This document shows positions 29,370-61,283 of a stretch of 64,000 nt of DNA, piece after piece. Source of the DNA: a virus; the IMG/VR virus record IMGVR_UViG_3300046028_005224, positions 1 to 64,000 of that record, one strand, 5' to 3'. Position 1 is the first letter of the stretch; the number at the start of each line of letters is the position of its first letter. Below the pieces are notes generated by a model, which saw only the letters and a list, made by a program, of their open reading frames with translations, made no database searches and had not been told where the DNA came from. Both the position numbers and the translations under genes were made by a program.

Positions 29370-29996
29370 TTAATGGATAGTCAAGTTTATTCTAGAATAT
29401 CTTAAATCAGAAGTAGTGCTATGATTAGTTTTTCCCTCTGGCAGACTATTAAAACTCATACTCCAACGTTTATCGGTATGATTATTTTTTGTCCCATGGT
29501 GCAACCAGCTTGGAAAAACTAATAACAATCCTCGTTTGGGAGTATGGCACATGTGATATACATCTAACTCATTTTGAACCATTAATTGACTCAATCTCTT
29601 ATCCACTGGATCTTTAAAGCATATATCACCACCATCACCAAAATAAAAAACACCACTTAAAAATGAATTTGGATGATAATGTGTAGGATGATATCCATCC
29701 TTTAATGTTTTATTAACCCACATTTGAGTGAGTGAAAATTTTTCAGTATCAAAACCGTAAGCGGTTCTTATTTCTTCCAAACATAATTCAAAATATTCAA
29801 CAATTCTTTTGTTCTCTACAGTTTTATGCAGCTGTTCATTTAAAGTCTGTTGAATGACTCCATCATCATTCATCATTTCTTTTTCTATATTTTTTTCTAC
29901 TTGATTTACAATGTCTTCTGCGTCAGAAATTCCTGATTCAAAAATATTAAACACAAAAACAGGTGTTGGAAAAACAGTATGAAGTTGATGATGCAT
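29370..29996 (-). CDS. 2OG-Fe(II) oxygenase (TIGR02466-like)
   Basis: 208 codons. It opens with HTVFPTPVFVFNIFES, then has THYHPNSFLSGVFYFGDGGD (first His of the iron site), LLLVFPSWLHHGTKN (second His) and KRWSMSFNSLPEG (2-oxoglutarate-binding Arg). This is the putative 2OG-Fe(II) oxygenase type found often in cyanophages. The substrate is unknown. No partner enzyme sits beside it. Confidence 0.8.
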   Translation of the reverse strand: MHHQLHTVFPTPVFVFNIFESGISDAEDIVNQVEKNIEKEMMNDDGVIQQTLNEQLHKTVENKRIVEYFELCLEEIRTAYGFDTEKFSLTQMWVNKTLKDGYHPTHYHPNSFLSGVFYFGDGGDICFKDPVDKRLSQLMVQNELDVYHMCHTPKRGLLLVFPSWLHHGTKNNHTDKRWSMSFNSLPEGKTNHSTTSDLRYSRINLTIH

Positions 29997-30688: not shown

Positions 30689-30717
30689 ATTATATAGCAA
30701 AAATAAAGGGCTGTCAA
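30689..30717 (-). promoter_or_regulatory. Consensus sigma-70 promoter of the hli operon
   Basis: Minus-strand TTGACA (30712-30717), 17-nt spacer, TATAAT (30689-30694): both hexamers are perfect. Confidence 0.9.
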
Positions 30718-30721
30718 GCCC
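30699..30721 (-). terminator. Terminator of the glycan operon, overlapping the hli promoter
   Basis: Minus-strand GGGCT-TGAC-AGCCC followed by TTTATTTTT. The loop and 3' arm contain the TTGACA of the hli promoter, so end and start signals share the same bases. Confidence 0.65.
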
Positions 30722-30759
30722 CCTTGTTATGAAATACTGACTTTAATAAGTATAAATGC

Positions 30760-31518
30760 TTACAGATTATTGAATTCAAAGTCGAAGAATTGATGAATTT
30801 CCATTTTATTAGATTCATTTTGCCACCAAGAAATAAGTCCGTCACGACTTCCTTTATGGAAAACATCAACATGTTCAGGATGAATCGTAGATCCAAGATC
30901 TAGTTTATACAGAAATACTGGGATAGCATAAGTTTTTCCTGCGTTGTAGATTAGATCGTCAGCAACAGCTCTAGGTCTAACGCCATTGTCAAGCTTATAC
31001 TTTTCTCCACGAACATGCAGTGCCATAAGCTTTTCAGCATAGCGTCGATTGATCATGTATGCTGCTGTAGAAAAATCATCCACAAGTCTTGGATGAAGAT
31101 TACCAAGAAGTTTACGAGGATTAATAACTGCAAGCTGCACCACATCCCAATCATAAGGAATGTAAGAATAAAACTCCTTCCAAGTGAAGGGCCAATACTT
31201 TACAGTCTCCAGATCCAAATCATCTTCACAGAAAATAGCATGGTCGGTATCAGAAGTTTCCAACCAATGCTTCATTCCTTTAAGGTGAGAAGTGACGCAA
31301 CCCACTTCGCCAGACGAAATCTCTGGATATCTCCCAATGAGTATATGGCTAAGATCATCATCCCGACCATCGTAAGCAGAAATTCTTTCATAATTTGTGA
31401 CTTGCCAGTAAGCAAATTGGTCTTCAATGTTTTTTCTTCTTTCTGGTTGCCCATCTAGATTCAGATAATAGATTGGACATATACCATTTAATTTATAAGC
31501 AGATTTATTTGTATCCAT
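30760..31518 (-). CDS. Glycosyltransferase family 25
   Basis: 252 codons. YYLNLDGQPERRKNIEDQF at the N-terminus, YERISAYDG, then SGEVGCVTSHLKGMKHWLE and AIFCEDDLD match GT25 (LPS-type beta-galactosyltransferase) in order and spacing. The EDD motif binds metal/nucleotide sugar. Last gene of the glycan cluster, overlapping the GT4 gene by 14 nt. It likely adds a sugar to a phage- or host-made glycan. Confidence 0.88.
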   Translation of the reverse strand: MDTNKSAYKLNGICPIYYLNLDGQPERRKNIEDQFAYWQVTNYERISAYDGRDDDLSHILIGRYPEISSGEVGCVTSHLKGMKHWLETSDTDHAIFCEDDLDLETVKYWPFTWKEFYSYIPYDWDVVQLAVINPRKLLGNLHPRLVDDFSTAAYMINRRYAEKLMALHVRGEKYKLDNGVRPRAVADDLIYNAGKTYAIPVFLYKLDLGSTIHPEHVDVFHKGSRDGLISWWQNESNKMEIHQFFDFEFNNL

Positions 31519-32455
31519 TGATAATTTCAGTCACACTAGGAATGTAATGTTTTTTAATGACCTTGATCCAATCAAAGTTCTTTGAGTATTCTAGTATATC
31601 TTTGCGATGTTGTAAAGAGTACTCACGGTTTTCTATGATCTTTTGCTCAACATATTCTACATCTGTCACTTTGTCTTCTGGAATTACAGTGATGAATTCC
31701 TTAGTTGTATCTAAATTAGCTTTACCCCATTCACAAACAACTACTCCAAGTCCTGCAGTCAAAGCTTCCATACAAACCAGTGGATGTGCTTCGCCATCAG
31801 ACAGTAATACAAGATTACCATATTGAGTTAAATCTCGATGTAAGGTTTCCTTGTCCCACTCACCTAAGTAATTTTTGTTTGGATTAAATCTAGAGTCTGC
31901 AATATTGCCAGCAAACCAAAGACTATCAATAGATTGAAAAAGATGCTGACGCTTACGATAATCAACCTTAGCAAGGTAAATGCTGCGATCTGCAAACTCT
32001 GGAGTATCAGTGTAATTAAACGCTTCCGAATTGACACCATTTGGAGTTACAAATAATTGCTCTGGCGGAATGCCTAACATTACTTGATAAATTTTGGCAA
32101 TGCCATCAGACAAACAAAAAATGTTTGGCTTGACTTCACCAAATGCATTGAAAATATTTACATATCCATTGAACATTTGTGGACGTTCTAGATATCCAAA
32201 GTGGCTTGTAATTGCTTTTGGATATTGAATATAAGGATAAATTGGAATAAATTCATCATAATGTACATGTACAAAATCTGGACGAAAGCCATTGATTTCA
32301 TCAATGATCTGTCGAGCATCTTTTGTGTTTACAATTTGTACTTCATGTCCAAGTCTTTCTAATGCATTTTTTGTATCCCATATTAGGATTTCAACTGCCC
32401 CCCAACCTGTTGGTGGAATGGGCATAATCCCTGGGCCTACGAGAGTGATTTTCAT
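31505..32455 (-). CDS. Glycosyltransferase family 4 (GT-B fold)
   Basis: 316 codons. GPGIMPIPPTGWGAVEILIW at the start, DFVHVHYDE, FVTPNGVNSEAF and the nucleotide-binding SDGEAHPLVCMEALTAGLGV (E-x7-E region of GT4) are typical. A retaining enzyme acting on NDP-sugars is expected. The neighbour genes are the sugar-type GQPR protein and GT25. Confidence 0.88.
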   Translation of the reverse strand: MKITLVGPGIMPIPPTGWGAVEILIWDTKNALERLGHEVQIVNTKDARQIIDEINGFRPDFVHVHYDEFIPIYPYIQYPKAITSHFGYLERPQMFNGYVNIFNAFGEVKPNIFCLSDGIAKIYQVMLGIPPEQLFVTPNGVNSEAFNYTDTPEFADRSIYLAKVDYRKRQHLFQSIDSLWFAGNIADSRFNPNKNYLGEWDKETLHRDLTQYGNLVLLSDGEAHPLVCMEALTAGLGVVVCEWGKANLDTTKEFITVIPEDKVTDVEYVEQKIIENREYSLQHRKDILEYSKNFDWIKVIKKHYIPSVTEIINGYK

Positions 32456-32459
32456 AAGT

Positions 32460-33215
32460 TTACCAAGTTGGGCCTTTACAATCTACCCCACGAACAAGAC
32501 GTAGTGGTAGGAGAATTCTAACTAAATCGTTTTGACTGTAGTATCGGTTATAGCACGAATACTTAAATGCTTCGGCAACGGGAGCCCAACATTCATCTAA
32601 GTTAACCAATCCATCCATTGTATGAGTATAAGCATTTAAAAATTTCTTATATCTTCTTCCAAATATAAATCCCAAATCAGGAAAATGTGGAGAATGTGAT
32701 GAAAGATAAAACTTATTATTATGTAATTCGTACAGATCTGGATAATCCCAAATATTTATGTCAGTGCGAATAGTGATAATGAAGTCATATGTATAATCTA
32801 ATTTTGTTAGAAGCTTCCCTACCTGCTCTATAGAATATAACTGGGATAGTTGATTGTGAAAGTTTTTGTTATGAAATCTTTCCGAATCAAACTTCTGTTC
32901 AATTTGAGAAAACATTTTTTCATTCTCAAATTGTTTTGGTTTTTCAGTAATTAAATGATGGGGTTTCCATTTCTCAATAAATCGGTTCAAATCATAGCGA
33001 TCCTTGGGACATTTTTCCATCTGAAGCCATGTGGAAAATTCCCAATCGGATGATACATGAGATCGATCCCATTGCTGAGCATCATCTTCATCCCACCAAA
33101 GGTGGGCATAGATGTCGGTATCATATCGATCAAAAATAAATTTTTTATGTGACTCATAGCAATAAGGATTTGCTGTGAATCTTGGCTGCCCGTAATACAA
33201 ACATGCTACTTTCAT
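32460..33215 (-). CDS. GQPR-family protein, copy 3 (glycosyltransferase-like)
   Basis: 251 codons. N-terminal VACLYYGQPRFTANPYCYES, DIYAHLWWDED, NQLSQLYSIEQVGKLL, then YDFIITIRTDINIWDYPDLY. The same order (GQPR, D-x-x-x-H-x-W, SQLYSI, I-x-x-R-x-D) occurs in the genes at 34276 and 36395. I-x-x-R-x-D is similar to the nucleotide-sugar site of capsular or WcaK-type transferases. Three copies alternate with HAD genes. Sugar-transfer function is inferred from the cluster. Confidence 0.65.
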   Translation of the reverse strand: MKVACLYYGQPRFTANPYCYESHKKFIFDRYDTDIYAHLWWDEDDAQQWDRSHVSSDWEFSTWLQMEKCPKDRYDLNRFIEKWKPHHLITEKPKQFENEKMFSQIEQKFDSERFHNKNFHNQLSQLYSIEQVGKLLTKLDYTYDFIITIRTDINIWDYPDLYELHNNKFYLSSHSPHFPDLGFIFGRRYKKFLNAYTHTMDGLVNLDECWAPVAEAFKYSCYNRYYSQNDLVRILLPLRLVRGVDCKGPTW

Positions 33216-33670
33216 TTGAGTTTCTCAACGTAATCACTACAGATACCGTAACAATTTAAAGCCTTTAGATCTCCAATATCATTTACAACCCATTCTGGCA
33301 TTACAACTACTGACATTGGTGTAACAGATTTTCCAGGATAAGTCCAAATATAATTTTTACTTGTCAAAGTATGGTCATCATTTTGATGCCAAAAGAAATT
33401 GAATCCTCCTGTACCATAAGTAAATTGATATAATGCTTGTATATTCTTACAATGAATCCAAAGATTATCTCTTCGTCCACCTAACCAATACCAATTAACT
33501 TCATAGGTAGGTTCATCATGACCTAATAATATTTTTTCAGTTTTTGTATTATACCATGCATCAATTTCTACATCATATCCTTGAGAAATAGCTTCATCAA
33601 TGTAATCTGGACTATTTTCTCTTTCGGAAATAATTCCAGATACATTACCTCGATGTGCAATAAGTTTCAT
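33212..33670 (-). CDS. GDPD-like phosphodiesterase
   Basis: 152 codons. LIAHRGNVSG at the start, QGYDVEIDAWYN and KILLGHDEPTY give the His...Glu-x-Asp...His pattern of glycerophosphodiester phosphodiesterases. It is shorter than most (240 or more), lacking some C-terminal strands. It could release or modify glycerol-phosphate decorations on glycans. Overlaps both neighbours. Confidence 0.7.
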   Translation of the reverse strand: MKLIAHRGNVSGIISERENSPDYIDEAISQGYDVEIDAWYNTKTEKILLGHDEPTYEVNWYWLGGRRDNLWIHCKNIQALYQFTYGTGGFNFFWHQNDDHTLTSKNYIWTYPGKSVTPMSVVVMPEWVVNDIGDLKALNCYGICSDYVEKLK

Positions 33671-34274
33671 TTTCTTTAAATGTTGTTCGCGTTAATTGAT
33701 CAAAACTAGAAACTTCATAAACAAAAGCTCCACTTGCATAAGCTGCTTGCTTTCCAACTTCACTATCTTCAAATATTAAAGTATTTTCTGGAAGAACATT
33801 AAAATATTTCATAGCACTAAAATATATTTCTGGATCTGGTTTAGGAGTAACAGATTGAGCACTAAGAATTAAATCTACATATTCTTCAACTTTTAATTTA
33901 GAAACTACTTTATCTAAAAAACTATACCTAGCATTAGATGCTAGGGCAATTTTAAGATTATTTTCCTTTAAATTTTTAAACAGTGGTCTTATTTCATTAT
34001 TAACCACAATGTTTTTTTCAAATAATTCACATGCATATTCATCTTTAAGATCCCAGATAAAATCAATAGCATCTTTGTTAATTTTCCCTTGCTCAGCTAG
34101 AAGATTTAATTTTTGTCTGGTAGGAATTGTCCCAAAATTTTCATCCTCTTCTCTAGTATAAAGATACCCATAATCTTTTAGAGCAAGCATAGTTGCAGGA
34201 TAGTGGAGGAGTCTACTGTTAACTAAGACTCCATCTACGTCAAATACACAAAGTTTGATTTTATCAAAATTCAT
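33645..34274 (-). CDS. HAD-superfamily phosphatase, copy 2
   Basis: 209 codons. CVFDVDGVLVNSRLLHYPAT (nucleophile Asp-x-Asp), IALASNARYSF (motif II Ser/Asn), Lys in PKPDPEIYFSAMKYF and LIFEDSEVGKQAAYASGAFV (motif IV) form a complete HAD (beta-phosphoglucomutase-like) enzyme. Clearly homologous to the N-terminal half of the 461-codon protein (35013-36398), e.g. TxPTRxKLxLL. Likely acts on a sugar phosphate. Confidence 0.8.
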   Translation of the reverse strand: MNFDKIKLCVFDVDGVLVNSRLLHYPATMLALKDYGYLYTREEDENFGTIPTRQKLNLLAEQGKINKDAIDFIWDLKDEYACELFEKNIVVNNEIRPLFKNLKENNLKIALASNARYSFLDKVVSKLKVEEYVDLILSAQSVTPKPDPEIYFSAMKYFNVLPENTLIFEDSEVGKQAAYASGAFVYEVSSFDQLTRTTFKENETYCTSR

Positions 34275-34275
34275 T

Positions 34276-35013
34276 CTAACCTCTTACGGCATGTGCATTC
34301 ATTGGGCAAGGTGCTAAATCACTATGACTATATCGTCTAAGGAAAGAACCCATTTTAAATGCTTCTGGAGAAGGTTCCCAAATACCTTCATAGACATGAT
34401 CAACATCATCAAATGCATTCTTTGCCCAACCCAAATACTTTGTTCCAAAGAATTGAATCGTATCTGGAAATCTTGGATGATGACCAGGAAGATAGAACTT
34501 GCTTGGATCACATTCTTCAAGATTTGGGAAGTTTTCTAAGATTGTATCATATCTCGCAAGAATAATCCACTCGTAAGATTGATTTGTTTCTGGTGCTCTA
34601 CGATAAGCATCAAAGATTTCAGCCACTCTTTTAATGGAGTATAGCTGAGACATAATGTTACTGTAGTTATGATGATTCCAATGTCCTTCTGGATGACGAT
34701 CTGTGTATCTTGCATCTACCCACTCAAGTGCATTTGGTGGAAGTTCAAATCTTACAGGCTCATCGTGCATTAAAATTAGAGGACTGTATTTTTCACAAAT
34801 TAATTCTAATGCATTCTCTGGGATTGGACATTGTTTAATTTTAGACCAAGTGGAATATTCATACTCCTTTGCCCAATCTTTTTTTTCTTCCCACCATGTA
34901 TGACCAAAAACATCTACGTCATAACGTGATAAGATACTTTCTTTATACACTCGTTCAATTTCTGGATTGTCAATAAAACGAGGTTGCCCAAAAAATAACA
35001 GAGCTACTTTCAT
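34276..35013 (-). CDS. GQPR-family protein, copy 2 (glycosyltransferase-like)
   Basis: 245 codons. VALLFFGQPRFIDNPEIERV, DVFGHTWWEEK, NIMSQLYSIKRVAEIFDAY and YEWIILARYDTILENFPNLE share motif order with the copies at 32460 and 36395. The C-terminus has PSPEAFKMGSFLRRY like copy 3 (APVAEAFKYSCYNRY). Its start overlaps the HAD-nucleotidyltransferase stop (TGATG). Same inferred role as copy 3. Confidence 0.65.
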   Translation of the reverse strand: MKVALLFFGQPRFIDNPEIERVYKESILSRYDVDVFGHTWWEEKKDWAKEYEYSTWSKIKQCPIPENALELICEKYSPLILMHDEPVRFELPPNALEWVDARYTDRHPEGHWNHHNYSNIMSQLYSIKRVAEIFDAYRRAPETNQSYEWIILARYDTILENFPNLEECDPSKFYLPGHHPRFPDTIQFFGTKYLGWAKNAFDDVDHVYEGIWEPSPEAFKMGSFLRRYSHSDLAPCPMNAHAVRG

Positions 35014-36398
35014 CAGACTTCTCCTTTATAGTTCTCCAGGAAGTAATCAAGATCTTCGGGAGTCCCAAGACCCCACATATCTTCTTTTCCAATCTCTTTA
35101 ATACGAATCTTTTTGCCATCTTCAATAGCTTCATTGTAGACTGGACAAACATAGAACTCGTTATTAACACGAATATTCTTTTCGATCATTTGTTCAGCAT
35201 ACTTTACATAATCTGAACCATGCTTCCAATAATAAATTCCTGCAGTTGCGTGTTCAGAAATGGGTTTCTTTTCAGCAACTTCACAAACATAACCGTCATC
35301 CCCAAGCTTAGCAAAAGACCACTTGGGATGTGTGGCAGGGAAAGTAACAATTCCACCATCGGCATTGTCGTTATTAAACGCATACAAAGTTTCATTGGAA
35401 TCCCAAAGAATAAGTTGATCAGAGTTGGTCATGATCAGAGGTTCTTCAGTATTGATAAACTCTTTTGCCAATAGGGTTGTACATGCAGCACCTTCAGTAA
35501 CACCGTCAACTTGAACGATGTTGCAATTAGGAGTGAGAAGATTAAGCAGATATTGAAGATTGTACTTTTCGTAATGACTCTTCTGTACAACATAAGTATA
35601 CTTTGCTTCAACATTTAAAGCTTCAACCACAACTTGAATCATGGGTTTACCACGAACTTCAATCAAAGGTTTGGGAAAGGTGTAACCAGCATTAGCAAAA
35701 CGGCTTCCAGCGCCAGCCATAGGAACAAGAACATTCATTTTTTCAGATCTCCATGCAATTTTTTTCTTAGTTGTATCATTTAAAAGAGATTTAATCTTAT
35801 CAACCTTTTGTTGATTAAAATCTTTACGGTCATCTACAGGCACGAGATGACATTTACTATCGATAGCACCTTGTCTTCCAATATGACTATCTTCTACAAT
35901 CACGGTATCTTTAGGTAAAGCACCTAATCTTATCATACACTTCCAATACATTTCTGGAAATGGTTTGTTGCGATAAACATCTTCATTACTGATGTAGATG
36001 TCTACAAACTCCAATACTCCTAATCTTAATAAAATGATTTTAACAGTATTCCTAATAGAATTTGATGCAACCGCAATGTTGTATCCTTCATCCTTAAGTT
36101 GTTGAAAATAATTCATCAACTCATAATCTTTGCGTACTTGCTCGTCAAAGATTGTAAAAGTTTCTTCCTGCTTATCACGCCAAATTTGTTCGTAATATTC
36201 TGTGGGAAGACCTTTGTTTTTTGTCAACAATTCCAATTTAGGTCTAGTAGGGAGACCATCGTAAATGCTAACATGCTCTTGACGAGTGATAACATATTGT
36301 TCACCAACTTTAGCAAGAGCTTTGTTCAAAGCATCAAAGTGATAATCCTTACTATCAATAAGGACACCATCTAAATCAAAGATTACAAGTTTAGTCAT
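35013..36398 (-). CDS. HAD phosphatase - sugar nucleotidyltransferase fusion
   Basis: 461 codons in two domains. Residues 1-210 form a HAD phosphatase (VIFDLDGVLIDSKDYHFDAL, IAVASNSIRN, NKPFPEMYWK, VIVEDSHIGRQGAIDS). Residues 223-461 form a sugar-1-phosphate nucleotidyltransferase (NVLVPMAGAGSRFANAGYTF, PKPLIEVRGKPMIQVVVEAL, IMTNSDQLILWD, GLGTPEDLDYFLENY). A phosphatase followed by NDP-transferase would finish an activated sugar from a bis-phosphate, as in heptose pathways, but the sugar is unknown. No frameshift at the junction, so it is a genuine fusion. Confidence 0.8.
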   Translation of the reverse strand: MTKLVIFDLDGVLIDSKDYHFDALNKALAKVGEQYVITRQEHVSIYDGLPTRPKLELLTKNKGLPTEYYEQIWRDKQEETFTIFDEQVRKDYELMNYFQQLKDEGYNIAVASNSIRNTVKIILLRLGVLEFVDIYISNEDVYRNKPFPEMYWKCMIRLGALPKDTVIVEDSHIGRQGAIDSKCHLVPVDDRKDFNQQKVDKIKSLLNDTTKKKIAWRSEKMNVLVPMAGAGSRFANAGYTFPKPLIEVRGKPMIQVVVEALNVEAKYTYVVQKSHYEKYNLQYLLNLLTPNCNIVQVDGVTEGAACTTLLAKEFINTEEPLIMTNSDQLILWDSNETLYAFNNDNADGGIVTFPATHPKWSFAKLGDDGYVCEVAEKKPISEHATAGIYYWKHGSDYVKYAEQMIEKNIRVNNEFYVCPVYNEAIEDGKKIRIKEIGKEDMWGLGTPEDLDYFLENYKGEV

Positions 36399-37051
36399 CT
36401 AACATCTCTATAGAGTTTAGGATAAAATGGATGTTTATGAACGATTAAATTATTTCGTTTAACATTCCATCCAAGAATACATTCAGGATTCACAATTACA
36501 CCTTCAGTACAAATATCTTCAAAGTCTGGATACATTCTACAATAAGCCATCATGGTATCATAATCGCCAAAAGCAAATGTATCTCCTAAAGCATAATCTG
36601 TATGGCTCTTAATATCTGTAATATGAAGTCCTTTTGGATCATAATCAGATAACTTACCCAATGGTTCTACGAACCAATTGTCTGTGCGGGTTCTAATAAC
36701 ACAATCAAACTTTTCAATTTCCGCATCCTGAACATATTTATCCATCAATAAAGATGCTTTATATAAACTATATGCCTGAGAAGCAATGTTGTTTAGCGGA
36801 TGATAATATCTTGGATCTGATTCAATTGTTGGATGAGAGAACGTTTTGGCTTCTTCAAAATCTACATCATGAGGATCAACCTCGTCAATAATAAAATCTT
36901 TAGTTTTATAATCACAGTTCCAGAAATGTGCAAAAATAGCAATTTCAGTTGCTGCACAAAAACTAAAAAGATATTGCTGATGGTTGGGCCAACACTCAAT
37001 AAAATCTCTCGGTTGACCAGAATAAAGAATGGCAACAGATTTATTAGACAT
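36395..37051 (-). CDS. GQPR-family protein, copy 1 (glycosyltransferase-like)
   Basis: 218 codons from ATG 37051, which overlaps the GT6 stop by 8 nt; the frame also runs further upstream without need. VAILYSGQPRDFIECWPNHQ, IAIFAHFWNCD, NIASQAYSLYKASLL and FDCVIRTRTDNWFVEP show the family order. The most diverged of the three copies, with a shorter C-terminus. It links the GT6-GT11 pair to the rest of the cluster. Confidence 0.65.
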   Translation of the reverse strand: MSNKSVAILYSGQPRDFIECWPNHQQYLFSFCAATEIAIFAHFWNCDYKTKDFIIDEVDPHDVDFEEAKTFSHPTIESDPRYYHPLNNIASQAYSLYKASLLMDKYVQDAEIEKFDCVIRTRTDNWFVEPLGKLSDYDPKGLHITDIKSHTDYALGDTFAFGDYDTMMAYCRMYPDFEDICTEGVIVNPECILGWNVKRNNLIVHKHPFYPKLYRDVR

Positions 37052-37760
37052 GGAATTGACTATTATCTTTAGATAAGTGTAGCATTTTTGGTTCAAATTC
37101 GCAATAGTTTGCAAACACTTCTGGGAATGCATATTGCGGATGTAAGGTATTTACTTTATCTTTATTCTGAGAGAAAAATTTATTTAAGTGGCTTTCATCA
37201 TGCCATTGTGCAATTATATTATTATCCAAATCTTTATTAACTTGATCTGCAAGATATGAAATTAAAGAACTAACTTCTTCACCCTTTCCTCCCCACAAAC
37301 ATCCTTGATAATAAACAGAAATATCATCACCCTCTTCAACACATGCGCGGGAAAGATTTGTTACGTCAAATGCTCCAGGAGGTTGATTATGAGGAGGCAT
37401 GTCAAGAAAATGACAAGGATGATGTACACCGAAGTAAGGCTTACTATCATCAAAAAATTCTTCAGCAGTAATCTTAGTTACTGGAATGAGGTCTGCGTCA
37501 AGAAAAACATACCAATCACTTTCTTTGATTACATCTCTAGCTTTTTGAAGAATTTCAAATCTCTTTAAAGTGATAAAGGGCCAATCAAGATGTTCTTGTT
37601 TATATGCTTTAACATCCTCTGGAAAATCTCCTTCACCATCAGTAAAAACTAAAAAGGTTTTTTCTGCTTCAGGTAAAAAATTATCGCTAACTTGCTCATA
37701 CCATTTAGGAAGAAAATTAAGATAACGACCAGTGCCAATAAAACTAATTGCAACTTTCAT
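37044..37760 (-). CDS. Glycosyltransferase family 6 (ABO-transferase family)
   Basis: 238 codons from ATG 37760, fixed by the TGATG overlap with the GT11 stop. FLDADLIPVTKITAEEF holds a DAD-type motif (bacterial/phage GT6 often lack the animal DVD). YFGVHHPCH, QPPGAFDVT, YYQGCLWGGKGEEV and IAQWHDESHLNKFF are the defining GT6 blocks of alpha-1,3-GalNAc/Gal transferases. A GT6 in cyanophage P-SSM2 has been noted in the literature. Being small and without a membrane anchor fits prokaryote-type GT6. The acceptor in animals is the Fuc-alpha-1,2-Gal H unit, and the gene just upstream makes that link. Confidence 0.85.
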   Translation of the reverse strand: MKVAISFIGTGRYLNFLPKWYEQVSDNFLPEAEKTFLVFTDGEGDFPEDVKAYKQEHLDWPFITLKRFEILQKARDVIKESDWYVFLDADLIPVTKITAEEFFDDSKPYFGVHHPCHFLDMPPHNQPPGAFDVTNLSRACVEEGDDISVYYQGCLWGGKGEEVSSLISYLADQVNKDLDNNIIAQWHDESHLNKFFSQNKDKVNTLHPQYAFPEVFANYCEFEPKMLHLSKDNSQFHV

Positions 37761-38548
37761 CAAACCAGCTCCCATGCTTTAGGAATTAAATCTTTAGTAT
37801 CTAGGTGAGAATTATTTGAACCTTCAAACCAACCTTTTGGTGCTACGACATGTTCACTATTTGATAACCATGCACCCCACCAACTAAAAGAACTATTTGC
37901 AATGATGTGTCCTTTACACAAAGTCATAAGACACATATCCAAATATTGATTTGTATTTTCTGAAATCATAAAACGATTATCATTAAACATTTCTTGTTCA
38001 AAACACCATTTAGGATCATCAGAAAAAACAAGCACTTGGCGATTAGGGAAAGCCTCCAATGCCTTTTTATAATATTCTAGGGAAAGTGCGGTATGATTTG
38101 TATTGGTTACATAATCAGTTCTTCGTACATGGAGGCTAACTGGATTATTAAATGATGTCATTGCTTCCATTGCTGGTCCTAGAATGTCATCATTGAACAC
38201 AAAGTCACCCTTTATTTCTTCTTTAATAAAAGTAAAATATTTTTCGCTTTGAAAGAACCCTTGTAATGTTACCCAGTCAGGACACTCATTAAAAAGCTTT
38301 TCATTAAAATGAAAAGTCTCTTCAAGAATTGTAGGTCTTCCTTCATCAATATATTGAACGTTTAAGTAATTTGTATTTTTAAGTTTAAACGGGATAAACA
38401 ATTGATGATCATACCATTCATCTTTTTGATAAGATGGGGGAATGCAAAATTGATATCCTCGGTTTCTAGCTATTCCCTTTACTGCGGCAAACTGAAACAT
38501 CTGATTTCCAAGTCTGCCTAATTTGCCCAGGGCATTAAATCCAATCAT
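37760..38548 (-). CDS. GT11 alpha-1,2-fucosyltransferase
   Basis: 262 codons. Motifs GRLGNQMFQFAAVKG at the N-terminus, SLHVRRTDYVTN (HxRRxDY GDP-fucose site), LVFSDDPKWC and IIANSSFSWWGAWLS are all diagnostic of GT11 (FUT1/FUT2, WbsJ type). Predicted reaction: GDP-fucose plus terminal galactoside giving Fuc-alpha-1,2-Gal. First gene after the promoter at 38571-38599 and coupled to GT6. No GDP-fucose synthesis genes are in the window, so host GDP-fucose would be used. Related substrates cannot be excluded. Confidence 0.88.
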   Translation of the reverse strand: MIGFNALGKLGRLGNQMFQFAAVKGIARNRGYQFCIPPSYQKDEWYDHQLFIPFKLKNTNYLNVQYIDEGRPTILEETFHFNEKLFNECPDWVTLQGFFQSEKYFTFIKEEIKGDFVFNDDILGPAMEAMTSFNNPVSLHVRRTDYVTNTNHTALSLEYYKKALEAFPNRQVLVFSDDPKWCFEQEMFNDNRFMISENTNQYLDMCLMTLCKGHIIANSSFSWWGAWLSNSEHVVAPKGWFEGSNNSHLDTKDLIPKAWELV

Positions 38549-38570: not shown

Positions 38571-38599
38571 ATTATACAAAAAAATAAGTTTAAAGTCAA
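38571..38599 (-). promoter_or_regulatory. Sigma-70-type promoter of the GT11-GT6 glycan operon
   Basis: Minus-strand TTGACT (38594-38599), 17-nt spacer, TATAAT (38571-38576). The -35 overlaps the stop of the HD-2OG gene. It should drive early transcription of the cluster down to the terminator at 30.7 kb. Confidence 0.75.
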
Positions 38600-39630
38600 G
38601 TTTCTTTTTGGATAGATTTAATTTCTATCATTGAACTTCTATCCATTTTATCTACATTTTCTGGATCATTAAAAGATTTTATAGCTAAAGTAAATCTATC
38701 CGCCTGTGCAAATGGTGTTAATGGTAATACTTTATGTTCTATTTGAGAATCGAAAACGACAATTCTACCAGGAATAAAATCTACAACTTTATGTACTGTG
38801 GAATTTTCTTCATATATTTTTAACTCACCTCCCCAAGTTTCATCCCAATACTTATTACAAAAAATAATAATAGTTAGACATCCAGAAAATGCTGCGTCTA
38901 TATGTCTGTTTACATAAGATATTTGTGGATAATGATTAATATAAAAATCATACAGATATAAAGTTTGATTAAGATTATTTACAATTTTTTGTACAGAGGG
39001 TAACACACCTGAGTCTTCAAGTTCTCTGGCAGATAAGTGGCAAGTAAATCTAAGATCTCTTGATGGAAACAATGGATCACTAGTGTGTTCAAACTTATAC
39101 TTAGATTGTATACAATATCGATGTAAGTGATTTAACTCCGCCCTAGTAAGTTTATCATCAAAAACAAATAATTGATCTTTATAAAAATTAGTGCTCATGT
39201 TAATATTATAATGTAAATATAATCTTTTTTTAATTTCTTTAAAGTATTCAAATTCTTTATCATTTAATTCAATAATCTGATCTAATAAATTTGCATACTC
39301 TATAATATATAACTCTTTTTGTAAATCAATATCAAATTTATGTTCTAAGATTTGATCAATACGTTTTTCTAAATTTGAATAAAAATATACAAGTTCTTCG
39401 GCACGAGTTCCTATTATTTTTTTTACATCTTCACGATCAATATTTAAATCAAATTTAAAATAATCAGTTCCATAGATTGCATGATACAATCCAGCATCAA
39501 TTAAATATTGTTCATTGGGAAAATGCTGTTGTATTATTTTAGAAGTATTATATAAATGTTCGTAAAAAGTTTTATTTCCATGCTGAACATTTATAGTCTT
39601 ATCTAATATAAATTTAAGTTTGTTATTCAT
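38596..39630 (-). CDS. Two-domain protein: DUF6817/HD-like plus 2OG-Fe(II) oxygenase
   Basis: 344 codons. Residues 10-150 contain FYEHLYNTSKIIQQHF, QYLIDAGLYHAIYGTDYFKF and IDREDVKKIIGTRAEELVYF, like DUF6817 with HD-type histidines (H, HA, D). Residues 155-330 form a 2OG-Fe(II) oxygenase: VNRHIDAAFSGCLTIIIFCN (H-x-D), WGGELKIYEENS, FIPGRIVVFDSQIEHKVLPL (second His) and DRFTLAIKSF (Arg). The same N-terminal type next to oxygenase domains suggests modification of a small metabolite. Very AT-rich, with many Ile/Asn/Lys codons. Confidence 0.7.
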   Translation of the reverse strand: MNNKLKFILDKTINVQHGNKTFYEHLYNTSKIIQQHFPNEQYLIDAGLYHAIYGTDYFKFDLNIDREDVKKIIGTRAEELVYFYSNLEKRIDQILEHKFDIDLQKELYIIEYANLLDQIIELNDKEFEYFKEIKKRLYLHYNINMSTNFYKDQLFVFDDKLTRAELNHLHRYCIQSKYKFEHTSDPLFPSRDLRFTCHLSARELEDSGVLPSVQKIVNNLNQTLYLYDFYINHYPQISYVNRHIDAAFSGCLTIIIFCNKYWDETWGGELKIYEENSTVHKVVDFIPGRIVVFDSQIEHKVLPLTPFAQADRFTLAIKSFNDPENVDKMDRSSMIEIKSIQKET

Positions 39631-40383: not shown

Positions 40384-40412
40384 ATTATAAAATGAATTTG
40401 AGAGATTGTCAA
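40384..40412 (-). promoter_or_regulatory. Consensus sigma-70 promoter
   Basis: Minus-strand TTGACA (40407-40412), 17-nt spacer, TATAAT (40384-40389), just downstream of tRNA-Met. A GGGCTTAAGCCC palindrome (40415-40426) lies between it and the tRNA. Confidence 0.85.
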
Positions 40413-40587: not shown

Positions 40588-40755
40588 TTAATCAGTAAAC
40601 CCGCTACATATTCGCACCATATCCTCATACTCATCTATTGGCATAAGAACACAATCTCCGTTGACACTTTTAATTAAAAAAGTTTCTCCTTCGCCAACGC
40701 GATCAAGGTAATCTTCAAAATACTGTTGCAATTCATCAACTGTAATTTCAGTCAT
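40588..40755 (-). CDS. Orphan Phd/YefM-type antitoxin-like protein
   Basis: 55 codons from ATG 40755 (an upstream in-frame ATG at 40776 adds only KKLIRQ). TEITVDELQQYFEDYLDRVG, then EGETFLIKSVNGDCVLMPID and YEDMVRI give the classic Phd/YefM fold: N-terminal beta-alpha DNA-binding core and a toxin-binding helix start. No toxin (Doc, YoeB, RelE) follows; the neighbours are tRNAs. It may neutralise a host toxin or act as a repressor. Located between tRNA-Pro and tRNA-Ile in one transcript. Confidence 0.6.
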   Translation of the reverse strand: MTEITVDELQQYFEDYLDRVGEGETFLIKSVNGDCVLMPIDEYEDMVRICSGFTD

Positions 40756-40794
40756 TTGTCGTATCAATTTTTTCATTTTATTTATAAAATGATA

Positions 40795-42866: not shown

Positions 42867-44369
42867 TCAGAAACGGAAGGTTGTCTGAATCACACCACCA
42901 TAATTATCCGAAGCTTGCTTCAGACCTTGGTTGTTGGACACATAGAACACAGCAGGAGTTACGCTGATATTATCGCTAACTTTGTAACGATAGAATGCTT
43001 CCCACATAATCGCTTTCTGATCTGCTTTGAGTGAAGAAGCATTACCAGGAGCACCAATGGCGAAACCAGCAGCATTACCCTTAGAAAATACATCGCTCCA
43101 CTGAGTACCAACAAACCAAGTTTGGGAGTCGGTAGCACCATTAGGAGTTGGACGGTTGTTAGAAACACTCACAGTGTTCCAACCATAAGCACCACTCACA
43201 GAAGGAATGATACCAGACTTCTTGGGTTGCCAGTATGCGTTGAAAGCATAACCATTGGAGGTTTGGTTAGCAGCAAGAGCACCAGAACCACCACCGATAG
43301 CGTTGAAGTTACGAACACGAGTTCCTTCAGTACCGTAGCGGTAACCGAAAGCAACACCATACTGAGGAGCACGGTAACCAACCTGTGCCAGAGTGTTCAG
43401 AGAACCATCTTCATCAAACTGACCTTTGGTAGAATCGTTTCCGTTCTGGGCAACATAGTTGATACCAGCAACAAAACCAGGCTTACCTTTCTTGGTAGGT
43501 TGAACCCACTGAGCACCGAAACCAGAACCAGTTGCCTTGTTGTAGACACCAGGAGCACCAGCAACAGAGAAGAAGTCCAGAATGTCTGAACGATAGGCAG
43601 TAGGAACCCAAGCCATCTCAGTGTTACGAACCTGAGCACCAGCAGTCAGAGTCATACCTTTGGTAAGACCAGGGAAGCTATAATACAGACGATCAAGAGT
43701 TACAGTGTTTGCATAAGTTTCTGCCTTGTCCAGTTTGAACAGAGACGAGGAAGAACCAAAGGGTTGACTGGAGAAATTACCAGAACGCAGACGGGTCTTC
43801 AACAGATCCTTACCAGTGAAGGAAGTATCAAAGCTCAGACGAACATCGTAGTTGAAAGCAGTGTTACCGACATTGCTGCTGTTAGCAAGACGAGCACCAT
43901 CTACACCACCCAGAACGAAGGTTGCTTCACCTTTGAGTTTGGTTGTAGTGGAGAATTGAGTTGCTTGGAGAGTCCCAACTTGTTTCTCCAGTTTAGCAAC
44001 ACGACCTCGAATAACTTGCAGTTCGTTAGAGAACTCATTAGCAAGACGCTGGAGTTCATCGGTAACTTCGGTTACACGATCAAGGCAAGCATTCAGAAGT
44101 GCTGCTGCCTCAAAGCGGGTCATTGCCTTTCCACCAAGGAAAGTTCCATTCTCGTAACCAGCAACGCAACCATAACGCTCTACGAGGTTGCTGAGTGCCT
44201 GATATGCCCAATCTGTAGGTTGAACATCAGACAATTTAGTAATACTTGAAACCTGCTCAGCGGAAGTATATTGGTTGACTGCTGCCATATTAAGATCTGC
44301 GGCATTCGCAGCAACAGGAGCAACCATTCCCAGAGCAACAGGTGCAAGCATAAGTTGTTTGAGTTTCAT
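42867..44369 (-). CDS. Cyanobacterial-type SLH-domain porin
   Basis: 500 codons. Signal peptide (KLKQLMLAPVALGMVAPVAANA). Residues 45-95 hold an SLH domain: SDVQPTDWAYQALSNLVERY, GCVAGYENGTFLGGKAMTRF, EAAALLNACLDRV. A short coiled coil follows (ELQVIRGRVAKLEKQVGTLQ). Residues 150-500 form a beta-barrel of the cyanobacterial porin (OprB/SomA, iron-uptake porin) type, ending in Phe (GGVIQTTFRF). It is a full-length, intact host-type outer-membrane channel. It has its own sigma-70 promoter (44439-44467) and terminator and stands between tRNA groups. Base composition is richer in G+C than its neighbours, pointing to recent host origin. Confidence 0.88.
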   Translation of the reverse strand: MKLKQLMLAPVALGMVAPVAANAADLNMAAVNQYTSAEQVSSITKLSDVQPTDWAYQALSNLVERYGCVAGYENGTFLGGKAMTRFEAAALLNACLDRVTEVTDELQRLANEFSNELQVIRGRVAKLEKQVGTLQATQFSTTTKLKGEATFVLGGVDGARLANSSNVGNTAFNYDVRLSFDTSFTGKDLLKTRLRSGNFSSQPFGSSSSLFKLDKAETYANTVTLDRLYYSFPGLTKGMTLTAGAQVRNTEMAWVPTAYRSDILDFFSVAGAPGVYNKATGSGFGAQWVQPTKKGKPGFVAGINYVAQNGNDSTKGQFDEDGSLNTLAQVGYRAPQYGVAFGYRYGTEGTRVRNFNAIGGGSGALAANQTSNGYAFNAYWQPKKSGIIPSVSGAYGWNTVSVSNNRPTPNGATDSQTWFVGTQWSDVFSKGNAAGFAIGAPGNASSLKADQKAIMWEAFYRYKVSDNISVTPAVFYVSNNQGLKQASDNYGGVIQTTFRF

Positions 44370-47029: not shown

Positions 47030-47554
47030 TTACTTTAGATAATTTAAATTTAATGTTATTCTTGCTTTTTTTGATGGCATTGAACTTGAGTGGAGGGTTT
47101 TTCCATCAAAAAGAACAGTTCTTCCTTTTTTAGGAGTTACTCGTTCTATAATATTTTTATTATCATCAAAGAAAAACGTATCTCCATCACATTCATTAAT
47201 ATAATATAAAACTACATTATGTGGCTCTGCCATATCAACGTGAGGATTGTTATGAAGTTTTGAGTTAGCCAATGGCAGATATAATCCAAATCTTGCACGT
47301 ACTACATTTTCATGTTTTAAATTAAATGCATTACTTATCATCAAGATTGGAATTTTAAAAAATATCCCAACATTACTAAACTGATCAAAGTTATCTATAC
47401 CAAGATGACCGAATGCTGGGTTACCTTTCATTGCAGGAAATGCAGTGTCATTTAGAAAACTCCAAGGAAAGTTTTCTTCAAAACACGATTCCTCTAGATA
47501 GTCTTGAATATAAGACGGGAATACATCATCAATAATTTTTACAAGGTCTGTCAT
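47030..47554 (-). CDS. 2OG-Fe(II) oxygenase
   Basis: 174 codons. NPHVDMAEPHNVVLYYINEC (H-x-D of the iron site), DGDTFFFDDN, GRTVLFDGKTLHSSSMPSKK (second His) and ARITLNLNYL (Arg). It lies 3 nt after nrdB and belongs to its transcript. Small 2OG proteins beside nrdB recur in cyanophages; the substrate is unknown. Confidence 0.75.
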   Translation of the reverse strand: MTDLVKIIDDVFPSYIQDYLEESCFEENFPWSFLNDTAFPAMKGNPAFGHLGIDNFDQFSNVGIFFKIPILMISNAFNLKHENVVRARFGLYLPLANSKLHNNPHVDMAEPHNVVLYYINECDGDTFFFDDNKNIIERVTPKKGRTVLFDGKTLHSSSMPSKKARITLNLNYLK

Positions 47555-55760: not shown

Positions 55761-56453
55761 ATGCACTTTGACACTGTTAAAATTTTCCCCACTACAATTT
55801 ATATTGGGGAGTTGCCCAATCATGAAGAAAACAAAAAATATTTTTACAATTTGTACCCAAAATATGATTATGAAGAAACTGAATACATTACAACTGTTAG
55901 CGAAGAATGTGGTAATCCTTTATTACATTTAGAAGCAGACTTAGAACCATTATTTAAAAATATTTCATTACATATAAAAAATTATATTCAAGATACTTTA
56001 CTCTTAAAAGATGTATTTGATATTACAATAACTAAAACTTGGTTGTCAAGAACTAGAAATCCAGAATATCATATTCCAGCACATACACACTCAAGTAGTC
56101 ATATATCATTTGTATACTATATTAATATTCCCAAAAATTCTCATAAACTTAAATTTTTAAATATACATGAACCAAATAGTTTGTTCTCTGATATTTTCCA
56201 TGGAGCTAGAAACAAAGATAGTGCATTTGTAAATTCATACAATGAGCACAATGCTCAATCTTTTTCATTAACTCCTGAAGAAGGTACTATAATAATTTTT
56301 CCAAGTAAGCTTCCACACGGCACAGAAGCTATTGATAAAAATTTTAATGGGGAGAGATTAGCTATAGTTGGTGATTGTATTTTAATTTTAAAAGAAGATC
56401 AATTAAAATATTCAATGGGTTATATCCATGAAAAACATTGGAAAAAATTTTAA
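55761..56453 (+). CDS. 2OG-Fe(II) oxygenase on the plus strand
   Basis: 230 codons. KIFPTTIYIGELPNHEENKK, TITKTWLSRTRNPEYHIPAH (His of the iron site in AHTHSSSHIS), GTIIIFPSKLPHGTEAIDKN (second His) and ERLAIVGDCIL (Arg). Same type as the gene at 29.4 kb (TIGR02466-like). It stands alone on the plus strand, convergent with the next gene by 4 nt. AT-rich codon use (many AAT, TTA) suggests a long phage history. Substrate unknown. Confidence 0.75.
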   Translation: MHFDTVKIFPTTIYIGELPNHEENKKYFYNLYPKYDYEETEYITTVSEECGNPLLHLEADLEPLFKNISLHIKNYIQDTLLLKDVFDITITKTWLSRTRNPEYHIPAHTHSSSHISFVYYINIPKNSHKLKFLNIHEPNSLFSDIFHGARNKDSAFVNSYNEHNAQSFSLTPEEGTIIIFPSKLPHGTEAIDKNFNGERLAIVGDCILILKEDQLKYSMGYIHEKHWKKF

Positions 56454-57577: not shown

Positions 57578-58357
57578 TTAAAATGTCAAATTAAAAACAT
57601 CTTTCAATCTAAATTTTTTCCAAAGTTCTTCATCAGTAGATGGTGTAAAATTTGGATAAATTTGCAGAAACGCTGCTAGGCTAATTCTATCATAAGTTTC
57701 AAACCAGTTTGTTTCAATATAAGGACTATGTAATGTAGTTGTTGGATAAGCCACTAATGTGTTATATTCCATTGGTATTACTTTTTCCATCTCAAAATTG
57801 TTATCACCCGTAAATTGTTTCCATGGCATAGAATTATTACTGTTGAAAGAATTCATGATGTGATACAATTCATTAATTTGCCCTAAAGACATATCAAACA
57901 AATTCATTTTATTTTTAAATGACCAAAAGCTTGTACCTCCTAACATATTTTCAGTTAAACAAACATTGACAGCTATATGTGTTTGAACTGATAATGGAAA
58001 AATAGAACAGTCTACATGTGGCAATTGATAAGAACAATTCATTTTACCATTAAAACAATTTACATACAAATCATAACATTGAACATCATTGCTTTGAAAA
58101 ATATTAGCAAATTGTTTTGATATAAAAGATCCAAATTTAGGACAATGTGAACTGGGGAATCCTGCAGTTTTTCCTGGTCTCCAAGTTGGTTGTGAATCAA
58201 AGTATGGAAAAGAACGTATAAGATTTTTTAATTTATCTGGATATTTTAAAAAATCTCTAATGACCAAAACATTTTCTGTTCCTGCAGTAAATATCTCGTA
58301 CTGTTTATTATTAACTTCTGTAGAATCTTTCCAAAGATCATCTATAGTTGTAATCAT
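57578..58357 (-). CDS. DUF6445-like (2OG-oxygenase-like) protein
   Basis: 259 codons. NVLVIRDFLKYPDKLKNLIR, FPYFDSQPTWRPGKTAGFP, YQLPHVDCSIFPLSVQTHIA (H-x-D), NVCLTENMLGGTSFW, NTLVAYPTTTLHSPYIETNW (His) and YDRISLAAFLQIYP (Arg). This is the DUF6445 pattern, which keeps 2OG-Fe(II) oxygenase residues. Located between mazG and helicase. Substrate unknown. Confidence 0.7.
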   Translation of the reverse strand: MITTIDDLWKDSTEVNNKQYEIFTAGTENVLVIRDFLKYPDKLKNLIRSFPYFDSQPTWRPGKTAGFPSSHCPKFGSFISKQFANIFQSNDVQCYDLYVNCFNGKMNCSYQLPHVDCSIFPLSVQTHIAVNVCLTENMLGGTSFWSFKNKMNLFDMSLGQINELYHIMNSFNSNNSMPWKQFTGDNNFEMEKVIPMEYNTLVAYPTTTLHSPYIETNWFETYDRISLAAFLQIYPNFTPSTDEELWKKFRLKDVFNLTF

Positions 58358-59731: not shown

Positions 59732-60292
59732 TCAAATGTAATGAAGGTATGTGCTCAAAAGATACTTATCGTTACTAATTGGAGGATTACCTTTATGGGG
59801 GAACATCCAAAGAGGCGGGAAGATCACCAGTTTACCAGCTTCAGGCTTAATTGTCAAATCGGTAAACACAGTTTCACCACCCTCATCTACCGTATTCAAA
59901 TACCAAAAGAATGAAAGATATCGTCTAGATGTCATATAATCTTGAACATCTACATGTGTATTAAACATGTCATTGCCATCATTCTTATATTTTTTAATTC
60001 TAAATTGCTCAAACCCATGTTGATGTTCTTTAGGAAAACAACGTCTTTCAACTAAATGGTAGTATTGTTTTAAATATCTACCCATATGAACCAAAGTTTG
60101 CCTTTGCAGTTCAACGGCTTCTGCGTTATGTGTTAATTCTGTAAGATTAAGTTGTGTAAAGGTTGGCTTTTTGTAATTATCAACTCTTTCTTGATTCTCA
60201 GGATTTGTTTCAAAAAAATTAATTAACGCATTGCACAGATCCAAAGGCAATGCATTTTCATGGACTTGGATTAAATCAATTAGAGTTACCAT
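59732..60292 (-). CDS. 2OG-Fe(II) oxygenase (prolyl-4-hydroxylase type)
   Basis: 186 codons from ATG 60292 (MVTLIDLIQVHENAL), overlapping uvsX by 17 nt; the 10-residue longer form would lie deeper in uvsX. FEQFRIKKYKNDGNDMFNTH (HVD iron motif follows), SFFWYLNTVDEGGETVF, LTIKPEAGKLVIFPPLWMFP (then H) and KYLLSTYLHY form a compact P4H-like domain. Adjacent to uvsX/41 as in other cyanophages. Confidence 0.8.
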   Translation of the reverse strand: MVTLIDLIQVHENALPLDLCNALINFFETNPENQERVDNYKKPTFTQLNLTELTHNAEAVELQRQTLVHMGRYLKQYYHLVERRCFPKEHQHGFEQFRIKKYKNDGNDMFNTHVDVQDYMTSRRYLSFFWYLNTVDEGGETVFTDLTIKPEAGKLVIFPPLWMFPHKGNPPISNDKYLLSTYLHYI

Positions 60293-61283
60293 AAGAAAAC
60301 TCCTTCTGAGCGATTTCATCAAGTGCTTGCATTACTTCTGGCGTAAAATATTTTTCAGGTTCTGCAAGAATTTGTTTTGCATAAATTTTCTTACCATCCA
60401 TCTCATAACGCCCCGCAACATTCTTCCAGAGTCCGCCGAGTTCCCCGAGTTCCAGAAGACCATAATAGCGATCAAGACCACGCTCATCATAAAATAAACG
60501 GACTTCAACTTCTTGATTCTCCTTACTCAAACGCGACTTTTGAGTTTTAGCACGAATAATATTTCCAACAACTTCTTTCCCATCCTTTTCCTTTGACTTT
60601 GAAAGATAAATGATAGTTGATGATGCATATTGCAATCCAGAACCACCTGACATTTGTTTTCCACCATACAAACTCATCGATTCGTATGTATGATTCGTCA
60701 CTATCATAGGGATACTTGCCTGCCCCAACTTCAAAGTCAACATACGAAATGCACCTTTTATAAGCTGTGATTTAGTCATATCACGAACTTGTTTATCATT
60801 CAGTGCATCGGTAATTTCTTTCTCAGTTGAAAGCATACCCAAAGAGTCTAACACAAACATACAGGGTTTGCGTTCTGTTTCAGGTTTTTTTAAGTACATG
60901 TCAACCGCTTTTAGTGCTTTAGTGCGAAATTCTTCTACGGTGACAACATTAACCACGACAAGACGAGATGTGTCGATGTCGCGTGACTCCAAGAGTGATT
61001 TGGTAATAGCGGATTCAGTATCAAAGTAGAGACAATAACCATCGGAGTTATTATCAAGAAAATTCTTAACCACAGCGAGAGAAAAGAAAGTCTTTCCAGT
61101 ACTAGACTCTCCAGCAATAGCAGTAATCTTATTCCCAGATACACCACCAAATATGCTACCTGAAACCAGTGCATTAAAAATGTACGAACCTGTGTCAACA
61201 TAAGTCTCCGTCTCGTCAATATCAGAAGCAAGCTTGGTGTACTCGCCACCAACTTCTTTTACAATTTCTTTAAGAAAGTCCAT
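60276..61283 (-). CDS. uvsX: RecA-like recombinase UvsX
   Basis: 335 codons (T4: 391). NKITAIAGESSTGKTFFSLA (Walker A), YCLYFDTESAITKSL, CMFVLDSLGMLSTEKEITDA (Walker B) and IPMIVTNHTYESMSLYGGKQ, then MSGGSGLQYASSTIIYLSK. It drives recombination-dependent replication with gp32. Confidence 0.95.
   Translation of the reverse strand: MDFLKEIVKEVGGEYTKLASDIDETETYVDTGSYIFNALVSGSIFGGVSGNKITAIAGESSTGKTFFSLAVVKNFLDNNSDGYCLYFDTESAITKSLLESRDIDTSRLVVVNVVTVEEFRTKALKAVDMYLKKPETERKPCMFVLDSLGMLSTEKEITDALNDKQVRDMTKSQLIKGAFRMLTLKLGQASIPMIVTNHTYESMSLYGGKQMSGGSGLQYASSTIIYLSKSKEKDGKEVVGNIIRAKTQKSRLSKENQEVEVRLFYDERGLDRYYGLLELGELGGLWKNVAGRYEMDGKKIYAKQILAEPEKYFTPEVMQALDEIAQKEFSYGNSN

Follow-up and report, generated by a model that had tools for sequence, protein, structure and literature searches.

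Two overlapping glycosyltransferase genes of a phage, one of family GT11 (alpha-1,2-fucosyltransferases) and one of family GT6 (the family of the ABO synthases), probably constitute the conserved core of an operon for building glycans. A few gut bacteria are known to have an ABO-like two-step sugar pathway. We propose that the phage GT11 would transfer an L-fuco-configured sugar to an acceptor resembling galactose, the linkage being most likely alpha-1,2, and that GT6 would then extend the branched product by an alpha-1,3-linked sugar of the Gal or GalNAc class, resulting in an ABO-type cap; the most likely substrate would be a host outer-membrane polysaccharide, modified during infection. The sugar added by GT11 would be L-fucose in the phage analyzed here and probably L-galactose in sister lineages bearing a GDP-mannose 3,5-epimerase (GME). 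We assign this explanation as a whole a probability of about 0.68. The evidence presented here concerns the identity of the genes, their predicted folds, the catalytic residues, the conservation of the coupling and the association with donor-making genes, and from it we infer the order of the reactions, the linkages, the GT6 donor and the target of the pathway.

The window, as we call the whole analyzed stretch of 64,000 nucleotides, is part of a 91-kb virus record that carries genes for a T4-like DNA polymerase, major capsid protein, portal, terminase and psbA as well as a tRNA cluster, and that we take for part of the genome of a Kyanoviridae cyanomyovirus (T4-like). The two genes of the pair are:

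37760..38548, minus strand: GT11 gene, 262 aa, alpha-1,2-fucosyltransferase family, first gene of the predicted operon.
37044..37760, minus strand: GT6 gene (ABO-synthase family), 238 aa, ATG at 37760, with a DxD motif and catalytic Glu189.

The GT11 stop TGA and the GT6 start ATG have one base in common (TGATG). The products match the Pfam profiles corresponding to their CAZy families, PF01531 for GT11 (E=2.4e-23, 83.2 bits, cut-off 23.9) and PF03414 for GT6 (E=1.1e-17, 64.2 bits, cut-off 25), the former belonging also to PHROG 2644 (glycosyltransferase), and the blocks HVRRTDY, SSFSWWGAW, HHP, QPPGAFD, YYQGCLWGG and WHDESHLNKFF were all found in them. An earlier note, made from the letters alone, had described adjoining GT11 and GT6 genes with overlapping stop and start and diagnostic motifs, and coordinates, profiles, overlap and motifs all bear it out. 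By sequence, the window GT6 matches Bacteroides ovatus BoGT6a (4ayj) with E=7e-24 and the human ABO transferases with about 1e-12; its AlphaFold model (pLDDT 93.7) superposes on BoGT6a (4ayj_D) with a TM score of 0.87 and on the human GTA/GTB structures with about 0.8, and so predicts a GT-A fold of the ABO/BoGT6a kind. No close relative of the window GT11 was detected by sequence among solved structures. Its AlphaFold model (pLDDT 95.5) found as best Foldseek matches the fucosyltransferases POFUT1, FUT8, NodZ and plant FUT1, so that the HxRRxD motif of GT11 enzymes (here HVRRTD) would lie within a fucosyltransferase-like GT-B fold. The alignments behind the models were made of window loci and loci from IMG/VR or genomes.

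We compared the active sites in an alignment to BoGT6a, whose numbering is used here, with 52 GT6 rows of the window clade, 35 of the P-SSM2 clade and 74 cellular ones; the contact residues of BoGT6a were those given in PMC3961637. Y13, T70, R73, H122 and W189-H190-D191-E192 are kept in 52/52 window-clade rows and W66 in nearly all; the catalytic Glu of WHDES (E192 equivalent) is thus present throughout, and the C-terminal Lys (K231 equivalent) in 50/52. Across every phage GT6 clade Tyr13, H122 and the WHDE block are invariant and K231 nearly so. N95/N97 of BoGT6a are replaced by DxD in all 52 window-clade and all 35 P-SSM2-clade rows, which leads us to predict metal dependence for the phage enzymes; cellular rows have NxN in 59/74. 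T134, an acceptor contact of BoGT6a, is replaced by A or S in nearly all window-clade rows, at a place where the alignment is uncertain, and A155/G157/S159 are replaced by Q/C/W without exception. The positions equivalent to 266 and 268 of GTA/GTB are Gln and Cys, invariant; they are Leu and Gly in the A type and Met and Ala in the B type (PMC4202792). Since the Q/C/W region corresponds to the region of donor choice in GTA/GTB, the phage GT6 can be assigned to neither A nor B. Its catalytic residues are intact and its pocket is unlike those of the A/B synthases compared (QGCLWGG; DxD).

These differences raise the possibility of a cap that is not of the ABO type, with the role of GT11 unchanged and GT6 using another donor or acceptor owing to its distinct pocket. 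The invariant Q155/C157/W159 and the loss of T134 in nearly all 52 window-clade rows speak for it, as do the GME-type loci described below, which predict L-galactose instead of L-fucose. However, all catalytic and donor-diphosphate residues are GT6-like and the predicted fold is close to that of BoGT6a, and we consider this reading somewhat unlikely. ABO-like chemistry of the pair, as in the explanation proposed above, is likely.

The association of the two genes is widespread among viruses that infect marine and freshwater cyanobacteria. A tblastn search over phage records detected GT6 in 71 and GT11 in 104 of them (cyanophages, marine viruses and uncultured phages), and the overlapping GT11-GT6 order recurs in DSL-LC02, DSL-LC03, S-CAM9, S-PRM1, B23, Bellamy and SynMITS9220M01; in ACG-2014f and P-SSM2 a methyltransferase or other genes lie between the two. 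From IMG/VR we took the best 80 of 571 relatives of the window GT6, which formed 47 clusters at 90% identity. GT11 is immediately upstream of GT6 in 38/47 and within 1.5 kb in 8 further clusters (46/47 in total, the remaining one being uninformative), figures that refer to the window clade and not to all viral GT6, because they were drawn from the best 80 of 571. As an internal control in the same set, position -1 to GT6 is occupied by GT11 in 39/47 loci, while at any other position around GT6 no family is fixed and none occurs in more than 15/47. The divergences of GT6 and GT11 are correlated (r=0.56 in the window clade and 0.67 among viral pairs; permutation maxima 0.24 and 0.15), and the window GT6 belongs to a group of 52 rows, all of them viral, with SH-aLRT 99. 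Gene coupling across relatives, as expected for a two-step pathway like that of E. coli O86, was therefore found: the survey of cyanophages that the earlier note had proposed shows the pair kept in dozens of divergent genomes, so that adjacency is not a peculiarity of this one. The P-SSM2 clade is looser, with GT11 adjacent in 9/36 clusters and mostly within 4 kb otherwise; 5/36 have no GT11 within 3 kb, and GT6 can thus exist without it. Conversely, 48/133 viral GT11 clusters have no adjoining GT6.

It could be argued that GT11 and GT6 are linked merely by the build-up of glycosyltransferases in cyanophage sugar islands and serve separate acceptors, as there are many such genes per island, with intervening genes in the P-SSM2 and ACG-2014f types. 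We regard this as very improbable given that GT11 holds position -1 in the window clade while the other positions are reshuffled, that the GT6 and GT11 distances co-vary, that the two families also occur together in many unrelated bacteria, and that the characterised bacterial GT6 enzymes use Fuc-alpha1,2-Gal (E. coli O86 and BoGT6a). Conserved adjacency, together with the donor genes before the pair, makes a coupled two-step pathway well supported, and it supports this part of the two-step ABO-like cap proposed in the earlier note, that the genes belong together.

Donor-making genes are frequent in front of the pair. Among 21 pair-bearing records searched, 14 gave strong matches to GDP-mannose 4,6-dehydratase (gmd) and GDP-L-fucose synthase (fcl), and in DSL-LC03 the four genes overlap head to tail (gmd 170347-171513, fcl 171503-172462, GT11 172425-435 across the record start, GT6 435-1154). 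We counted donor genes in 69 non-redundant pair loci: gmd/fcl (GDP-L-fucose) are upstream of the pair in 25, GME (GDP-L-galactose) is immediately upstream in 17, and the two modules are mutually exclusive (0/69 with both); 18 have neither in at least 5 kb, and another 9 are too short to judge. In S-CAM9, S-PRM1 and their relatives, the gene before GT11 is close to plant GDP-mannose 3,5-epimerase (2c59, E=6e-81, versus 3.5e-20 for the best GDP-fucose synthetase). The phage GME alignment retains SSACIYP, YGxEK, EKAPAAxCRK and VRGRNS, which we take to include the catalytic residues of that enzyme. Some S-CAM9 records label the nucleotide-sugar epimerase that precedes the pair as a UDP-glucose 4-epimerase; such an enzyme, which would make the donor of GT6, was rejected for S-CAM9, S-PRM1 and Bellamy alike, GME being by far the best match.

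In the GT11 tree, GME-linked genes cluster (2 label changes versus 15.3 in shuffles) and the window GT11 lies on the side of the loci with Fcl or neither module. The variable residue of HxRRxD is G in 17/17 GME-associated and T in 23/25 Fcl-associated GT11 proteins; we do not read this as a specificity switch, HxRRGD being also the usual form (consensus) in other GT11 proteins. The product of GME is GDP-L-galactose, and transfer of L-galactose by a plant alpha-1,2-fucosyltransferase is on record (PMC8787198, a review, and its reference list), which makes an L-galactose chemotype plausible. The product need not be an A, B or H antigen proper: the Q/C/W pocket is unlike those of the A/B synthases compared, and 17 loci predict GDP-L-galactose as first donor. 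The window phage has neither donor module, no gmd or fcl being found on its contig, and its GDP-L-fucose probably comes from the host cell. In the host family inferred from psbA (G270), of which 300 genomes were searched, fcl homologues are common (well over 100 places with E<1e-90).

Further features surround the pair:

38571..38599, minus strand: sigma-70-type promoter-like site TTGACT-17-TATAAT, 11/12 consensus, ending 23 bases before the GT11 start.
30763..37054, minus strand: downstream genes, same predicted transcription unit.
30705..30724, minus strand: terminator-like hairpin at the cluster end, 8 pairs followed by a T run.
38596..39630, minus strand: gene for a DUF6817 + 2OG-Fe(II) oxygenase protein (Pfam), directly upstream of GT11.

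Promoter-like sites of at least 11/12 number 19 in the window versus 3.6 expected from simulated sequence, an excess of about fivefold, and, as a class, they are therefore probably real promoters; almost all are on the minus strand (e.g. 57589, 52055, 42863, 40919, 40412, 38599 and 30717). Because of the promoter-like site and the closing hairpin, the region from 38548 to about 30760 may be read as one transcription unit with GT11-GT6 first, as judged from gene overlap and consensus sites. The downstream genes encode three phrog_13607 proteins of unknown function, a HAD-nucleotidyltransferase fusion, a HAD phosphatase, a GDPD-like protein, a GT4-like glycosyltransferase and a phrog_2835 glucosyltransferase. 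The phrog_13607 proteins are three diverged 'GQPR' copies (36398-37054, 34276-35013 and 32460-33215, minus strand) without a Pfam match, possibly an undescribed glycosyltransferase-like family. The oxygenase gene at 38596..39630 has a separate promoter-like site, at 40412, and occupies the slot of gmd/fcl or GME in related phages. Other genes resembling 2OG-Fe(II) oxygenases lie at 29370-29996, 47030-47554, 55761-56453, 57578-58357 and 59732-60322, the one at 38596-39630 alone having been tested against Pfam. Within the tRNA cluster we also observed a cyanobacterial-type outer-membrane porin (SLH + OprB, 500 aa; 42867-44369, minus strand), relatives of which (family F11) are found beside other loci of the GT6 set. 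Between tRNA genes lies a 62-aa Phd/prevent-host-death antitoxin-like protein (40588-40776, minus strand) with no obvious toxin; at a similar place Bellamy has an annotated 'Phd-like antitoxin' and DSL-LC03 a 'prevent host death protein'.

The same two-step pathway might instead act on virion proteins such as capsid or tail fibre, which would put the sugars on the phage particle itself. Proteins can be hydroxylated before they are O-glycosylated, and the contig has several oxygenase-like genes, one of them directly upstream of the pair; moreover, tail-fibre or very long genes are near the cluster in ACG-2014f and P-SSM2. The predicted early-type promoter, however, suits host modification at least equally, and the neighbours (nucleotidyltransferase, HAD phosphatases, GT4 and glucosyltransferase) look like those of polysaccharide clusters, for which reasons we hold a virion target to be unlikely and retain the host polysaccharide as the preferred one.

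Within the 300 genomes of the inferred host family GT6 occurs in 3, in a different type (FQNCFQGG), and no GT11 was found beside these in the stretches read; GT11 occurs in 11/121 genomes of the family. Since GT6 is rare in the hosts and differs in type there, and GT11 is infrequent, the cassette appears mainly viral in this setting, and recent capture from the host is unlikely. On plasmids, two distant GT6 relatives were the only ones detected. Of 64 informative GT6 clusters from other bacteria, 46 have a GT11 gene no more than 4 kb away, which agrees with the E. coli O86 pathway. The cellular GT6 rows nearest the phage clade (L110:1013-1720 and L111:7571-8302) come from contigs that carry the labels Omnitrophota and Pacearchaeota (an archaeon), L110 having GT11 36 bases downstream of GT6. 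According to PMC3961637, archaea lack GT6, and an archaeal GT6 would be unexpected unless these contigs belong to viruses or were misbinned.

Cyanophages rank with the most abundant viruses in water, and their genomes often contain sugar-gene clusters whose purpose is not known. For one such cluster, a conserved pair that has a precedent and brings its donor supply along points to a concrete, testable product, and from the donor module one can predict which of the two sugars, L-fucose or L-galactose, a phage should add. If the explanation is true, lytic phages are capable of making branched glycans of the ABO type, and a change of the host surface against rival phages can be tested directly against decoration of their own particles. 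It is tempting to speculate, as a tentative extension, on a self-contained, exchangeable cassette, in which the fixed GT11-GT6 pair with gmd+fcl or GME would give the host either an ABO-like cap or the corresponding L-galactose form, amounting to virus-borne serotype conversion in two chemotypes. Against the explanation we counted the altered pocket, the P-SSM2-clade gaps, the GT11 clusters without GT6 and the window contig without gmd/fcl; in its favor, the precedents of BoGT6a on 2'-fucosyl-lactose and of WbwK with WbnI in E. coli O86.

Single components had been mentioned before. PMC3961637 notes GT6 genes as present in two cyanophages, with neither a GT11 partner nor donor genes in the accessible text, and PMC9602691 reports gmd, fcl, GME and an alpha-1,2-fucosyltransferase in cyanophage S-SCSM1, with no GT6 partner in the part available. 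Our literature search found no description of the GT11-GT6 pair as a pathway in phages; the novelty claimed for it in the earlier note holds to that extent and not for the two-step logic, already known from E. coli O86 (PMC4202792). What is new is the presence of the pair in phages and its exchangeable donor module. BoGT6a, the closest solved structure, has in common with phage GT6 the fold, the WHDE block and the His122/Lys231 equivalents, and acts on 2'-fucosyl-lactose, but it is an NxN, metal-independent enzyme (PMC3961637), whereas the phage enzymes have DxD, and it has AGGLSGG where they have QGCLWGG. In the E. coli O86 O-antigen, WbwK (GT11) makes the H unit, which WbnI (GT6) turns into blood group B with an alpha-1,3-linked Gal (PMC4202792), the same GT11-then-GT6 logic as in the phage pair. 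The O86 genes, however, belong to a chromosomal O-antigen cluster, whereas those of the phages form a virus-borne cassette with overlapping genes, in which GDP-L-galactose appears in some phages to replace GDP-L-fucose.
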